From assembly GCF_028389875.1 (NCBI RefSeq), contig NC_084687.1, forward strand, positions 4,934,157 through 4,998,156: a stretch of DNA of 64,000 nt, written 5' to 3'. Below, one piece after another: positions 55,202 to 59,454 of this stretch. Source of the DNA: Rhea pennata (taxonomy: Eukaryota > Chordata > Aves > Rheiformes > Rheidae). Below the pieces are notes generated by a model, which was not told where the DNA came from, did not search any database, and worked only from the letters and a program-made list of their open reading frames with translations. Numbering within the stretch: the stretch's first letter is position 1; each line of letters opens with the position of its first letter. A program made the translations under genes and the position numbers.

Positions 55202-59454
<4,253 letters not shown>

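Follow-up and report, generated by a model that had tools for sequence, protein, structure and literature searches.

A candidate nine-nucleotide exon in a bird renin gene and its probable orthology with human REN exon 6

The 64,000-nucleotide stretch of Rhea pennata DNA analysed here (the window) belongs to contig C25 (8.35 Mb) of a genome of 1,268,942,789 bases in 180 contigs. Its G+C content is high (0.57–0.70 per 4 kb). The complete renin gene, REN, lies on the minus strand between 59454 and 55202, and in-silico splicing resolves it into ten coding exons separated by GT..AG introns (Table 1). One of these, exon 6, is only nine nucleotides long, and the spliced frame is open both with it (411 codons) and without it (408 codons). 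The spliced protein matches the pepsin-family aspartic protease profile PF00026 with an E value of 3.3e-112. Renins make up the top 12 of its 42 PDB matches (514–441 bits), with rat renin at 514.5 bits, mouse renin at 491.8 and human renin at 484.2, and the best non-renin match is cathepsin D (400.8 bits). These matches place the protein nearer to renins than to cathepsin D/E or pepsins. It is identical to human renin at 214 of 378 aligned residues and to rat renin at 220 of 376; human and rat renin are identical at 248 of 373 positions in the same alignment rows. A full-length renin match (residues 1–411, exon by exon) is found at one genomic place only, the REN locus, and the other genomic matches to the renin query are short stretches of at most 69% identity (36 matches in total).

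The surroundings of the gene were also inspected. A choline/ethanolamine-kinase ORF lies on the minus strand at 45749–46531, identified at family level by a Pfam search. In the human gene order ETNK2 adjoins REN, and the kinase ORF is in keeping with an ETNK2–REN arrangement. The placing of SOX13 close to REN is a reading by eye of a candidate ORF without any Pfam match. A TATAAAA sequence at 59529–59523 (minus strand), 75 bp 5′ of the REN start codon, is a plausible core promoter. Exon 2 (58539–58383) encodes a prosegment that lacks a dibasic pair close to the predicted maturation site, where human renin has KR; the sole dibasic pair in the prosegment stretch tested is an RR near the start of that stretch, and processing of the bird prorenin may differ. 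Exon 10 begins at a tandem NAGNAG acceptor, GCAG/CAG (55363–55358, minus strand), whose first site preserves the aligned length of the human and rodent renins and whose second would remove one Gln (VLR-Q-SQYG).

Table 1. Coding exons of REN, the introns that flank exon 6 and its splice signals, in the order of transcription (window positions)
Feature	Positions	Strand	Basis
REN exon 1, coding part	59354..59454	-	spliced frame
REN exon 2	58383..58539	-	spliced frame
REN exon 3, DTGS catalytic motif	58063..58186	-	spliced frame
REN exon 4	57691..57809	-	spliced frame
REN exon 5, C-terminal end ..VYYSR, donor phase 2	57322..57518	-	spliced frame
Intron 5-6, 411 nt	56911..57321	-	spliced frame
Exon 6 acceptor: branch-point-like TTCAC (A at -23), pyrimidine tract, GCAG	56911..56933	-	
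REN candidate exon 6, 9 nt AGCTTCCAA, phase 2 at both ends, adds Ala-Ser-Lys	56902..56910	-	
Exon 6 donor: GTAAGA	56896..56901	-	
Intron 6-7, 306 nt	56596..56901	-	spliced frame
REN exon 7, starts NSPLKLGGE	56473..56595	-	spliced frame
REN exon 8, DTGA catalytic motif	55876..56020	-	spliced frame
REN exon 9	55681..55779	-	spliced frame
REN exon 10 and stop codon	55202..55363	-	spliced frame

The nine-nucleotide candidate and its neighbouring junctions (57322 and 56595) lie where a preliminary description of this DNA had placed them, and the pyrimidine-rich acceptor (..CATCTCTCTCTTTGCAG) and GTAAGA donor that it reported are both present. Spliced in, the nine bases insert Ala-Ser-Lys in frame after YYSR, again as described, giving a protein of 411 residues. 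A second branch-point-like site, CTCAC, occurs 31 nt upstream of the exon. Unspliced read-through past the exon 6 donor would give ..YYSRASK followed immediately by an in-frame TAA, so the nine bases cannot open a longer coding exon that ignores the donor. Splice sites were scored with weights that are approximate vertebrate base frequencies and not with a published program; on this scale the exon 6 acceptor (12.33) is second among the nine acceptors of REN and the donor (7.66) is sixth among its nine donors (4.2–10.3). A 36-nt version of the exon using an upstream acceptor at 56937 was rejected as outscored (14.3 against 20.0 for the exon 6 pair). No special RNA structure was found around the exon (z = 0.97), and neither flanking intron contains the RBFOX motif as TGCATG or GCATG.

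Exon 6 would be recognised through its strong pyrimidine tract, the near branch-point-like site and the GTAAGA donor, and the short introns on either side would aid recognition and lead to efficient inclusion. Given the strong tract and donor and the short introns, we expect mostly the 411-residue renin: the exon is predicted to be spliced in and, judging from these features, to be mostly constitutive. The preliminary description had pointed out that skipping is frame-neutral and had left both isoforms possible. The first part stands, since the 408-residue frame is open, whereas the strong sites, the short introns and the lack of TGCATG point to constitutive use. An alternative cassette, in which the exon enters part of the mRNA and renins of 411 and 408 residues are both made, perhaps depending on tissue, could draw on these two open frames, on the usual paralog loop length of the skipped form and on a CTCTCT, a PTBP1-type motif, in the exon 6 tract. 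We consider it unlikely, because TGCATG is absent from both flanking introns and because, as PMC4317164 reports, stronger splice sites and shorter flanking introns typify constitutive micro-exons; exon 6 has these features (acceptor second of nine, donor sixth of nine, introns of 411 and 306 nt).

At the protein level the comparison of renins covers one bird and, as mammals, human, mouse and rat. The alignment bears out that human renin carries the insert Asp-Ser-Glu at the position of the bird exon and that mouse and rat renins have no insert there: the human sequence reads NR-DSE-NSQ-SLGGQ, that of rat SRESH----LLGGE and that of mouse NRGSH----LLGGE. DSE sits exactly where the bird exon adds ASK, Asn-Ser comes next in both, and one of the three inserted residues is identical. 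Counted from the alignment, the insert corresponds to mature human residues 165–167. The loop that runs from the conserved Arg/Ser to Gly-Gly, counted by hand from the alignments with the paralogous loci L043, L045 and L047 left out, has nine residues in bird REN with the exon and six without it. It has eight residues in human renin, five in rat and mouse renin, six in human cathepsin D and six in all four bird paralogs counted. Human renin minus three residues has the rodent loop length. Without ASK, the bird fragment equals cathepsin D in length (49:49), is one residue longer than the rat and mouse fragments (52:51) and two residues shorter than the human one (52:54).

Three human renin crystal-structure entries (3o9l, 3oad and 3oag) contain the chain in two parts, of which the first ends at query residue 234 and the second restarts at 242. 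Since these chains break at the position of the insert, an exposed, flexible or cut loop would fit. Ala-Ser-Lys would be part of a surface loop in the N-terminal half of the enzyme, with the catalytic motifs untouched. We expect three added residues to have little effect on catalysis, and the functional effect of the insert is probably small.

We take exon 6 of human REN to be nine nucleotides long, to encode Asp-Ser-Glu and to share its length and phase with the bird exon; seven of the nine bases are presumably alike in the two species. We infer probable orthology between the bird exon and exon 6 of human REN. If the two are orthologous, the exon is older than the split between birds and mammals.

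The pepsin-family paralogs of the same genome provide a further control. Nine paralog stretches were taken and the equivalent intron was scanned in eight of them; in the ninth (L046), which was omitted, exon 5 was not found. In seven of the eight loci, joining the flanking exons gives an open frame, with the intron in phase 2 each time, as in REN. No open exon 5–7 join was found in L042, and the intron limits are uncertain there and in L045. In L039, which is cathepsin D-like, the top-scored donor lies further downstream without a change of phase, and a lower-scored donor lies directly after YLNR. None of the eight introns contains a nine-nucleotide candidate comparable to exon 6: the best reaches 7.64 against 20.0, the best in four other loci score 2.19, -1.84, -2.26 and -5.64, and three loci have no candidate at all. 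With all candidate lengths of 1–30 nt admitted, the best paralog candidates score 15.6 (4 nt, L040) and 14.6 (20 nt, L039). The shared phase-2 intron indicates that the host intron is old and common, and among these loci REN alone has a nine-nucleotide exon of such quality. Three of the pepsin-like paralogs (L041, L042 and L043) stand in a row at 4560800–4579500 of the contig that also carries REN. L042 has an in-frame stop inside its exon-5 match and is possibly a decayed copy. The viral-contig and genome-contig collections searched contain no renin relatives.

With the exon in human and in one bird, and with the examined paralogs lacking it, the simplest history has one gain that predates the divergence of birds and mammals and one loss on the branch towards mouse and rat. 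The preliminary description had proposed, provided that the bird exon is real, an ancestral exon that was lost in rodents. The shared position of the human and bird inserts and the lack of one in mouse and rat agree with an ancestral origin, and "lost in rodents" is better worded as "absent in mouse and rat"; we infer that the loss occurred in the line leading to these two species. With separate origins, the bird exon would be real, but this old phase-2 intron would have gained an exon twice, independently in the bird and human lines. Such a history is made easier by the agreement of only one in three inserted residues, by a loop that tolerates changes in length (five to nine residues) and by a comparison limited to one bird and three mammals. 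It is nevertheless distinctly improbable, as both exons occupy the same intron of the same gene, with a size and phase that are presumably alike in human, and as the eight paralog introns examined hold no nine-nucleotide candidate of similar strength.

How often such a pair of splice sites arises by chance was estimated in several ways. The exon 6 pair (20.0) tops the 125 AG-N1..60-GT pairs of the 726-nt interval between exon 5 and exon 7, where the runner-up (14.3) uses the same donor, and it alone reaches 20.0 among the window's 446 AG-N9-GT sites, both strands counted. None of 2000 dinucleotide shuffles of the 726-nt interval reaches its score. Nor do the 617 nine-nucleotide sites found elsewhere in the genome, on both strands of 24 loci that total 84,848 bases; none there scores above 17.3. 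The other 24 of 48 loci were removed from this control because a coarse filter placed them inside the window or showed overlap, and some partial overlap may survive this filter. When lengths from 1 up to 30 nt are allowed, two other pairs on the two strands of the window equal or exceed the exon 6 score. Strong splice-site-like pairs bound short intervals of 21 nt at 27555–27575 (plus strand, 25.3) and of 29 nt at 392–364 (minus strand, 20.0). Arithmetic from the window count gives an expectation, from the weights alone, of about 0.01 such pairs per 726 nt of one strand. The weights alone would therefore mislead about once per hundred introns of that size, and the exact length, frame and place carry the rest. 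The 15-mer AGCTTCCAAGTAAGA has eight copies in the genome, so that the letters by themselves prove nothing about exon 6. That the nine bases form a pseudo-exon with strong-looking but unused sites, the renin mRNA joining exon 5 directly to exon 7, is very unlikely: the two other window pairs, of other lengths, allow for it, but neither the shuffles nor the sites elsewhere match the exon 6 score, and the candidate corresponds to the human insert in length, frame and place.

Taken together, we consider it likely that avian REN uses the nine-base segment as a genuine U2-type exon, that this exon is orthologous to human exon 6 and that most of the mRNA includes it. For its history we lean modestly towards an exon that was inserted in an old phase-2 intron after renin and cathepsin D had separated and before birds and mammals did, that was kept as a constitutive exon and that was lost in the ancestry of mouse and rat.

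If true, this would fix the age of one of the smallest coding exons in a well-known endocrine gene. It would also reverse the reading of the human–rodent difference, with mouse and rat, the common laboratory rodents, as the odd ones out, carrying a derived, shorter renin loop; from the sequences compared, the insert appears to be ancient and not a primate novelty. The annotation of bird renin would need a nine-nucleotide exon, which spliced aligners easily miss. A literature search, from which subscription papers were mostly outside, returned no paper on exon 6 of bird renin or on any renin micro-exon, and annotated bird models may already show the exon. According to PMC3354321, chicken renin was missing from a 2012-era assembly and visible in shotgun reads of chromosome 26.

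In comparison with known systems, the closest is human REN exon 6, which, like the bird exon, adds three residues between the Arg of YYSR/YYNR and Asn-Ser. The residues are DSE instead of ASK, and the human loop is one residue shorter than that of the bird because exon 7 differs (PLK/Q-S). The mouse and rat forms (PDB 5mkt, 1smr and 5mlg) are the same enzyme with the same junction but lack the three-residue insert. Cathepsin D and the other pepsin-family paralogs resemble REN in the place and phase 2 of the intron (seven of eight loci) and differ from it in having no comparable nine-nucleotide candidate (eight of eight introns). Exon 6 resembles the constitutive vertebrate micro-exons of PMC4317164 in its strong sites, short introns and adjacent pyrimidine tract, and differs in size, its 9 nt placing it in the thinly populated 6–21 nt class.
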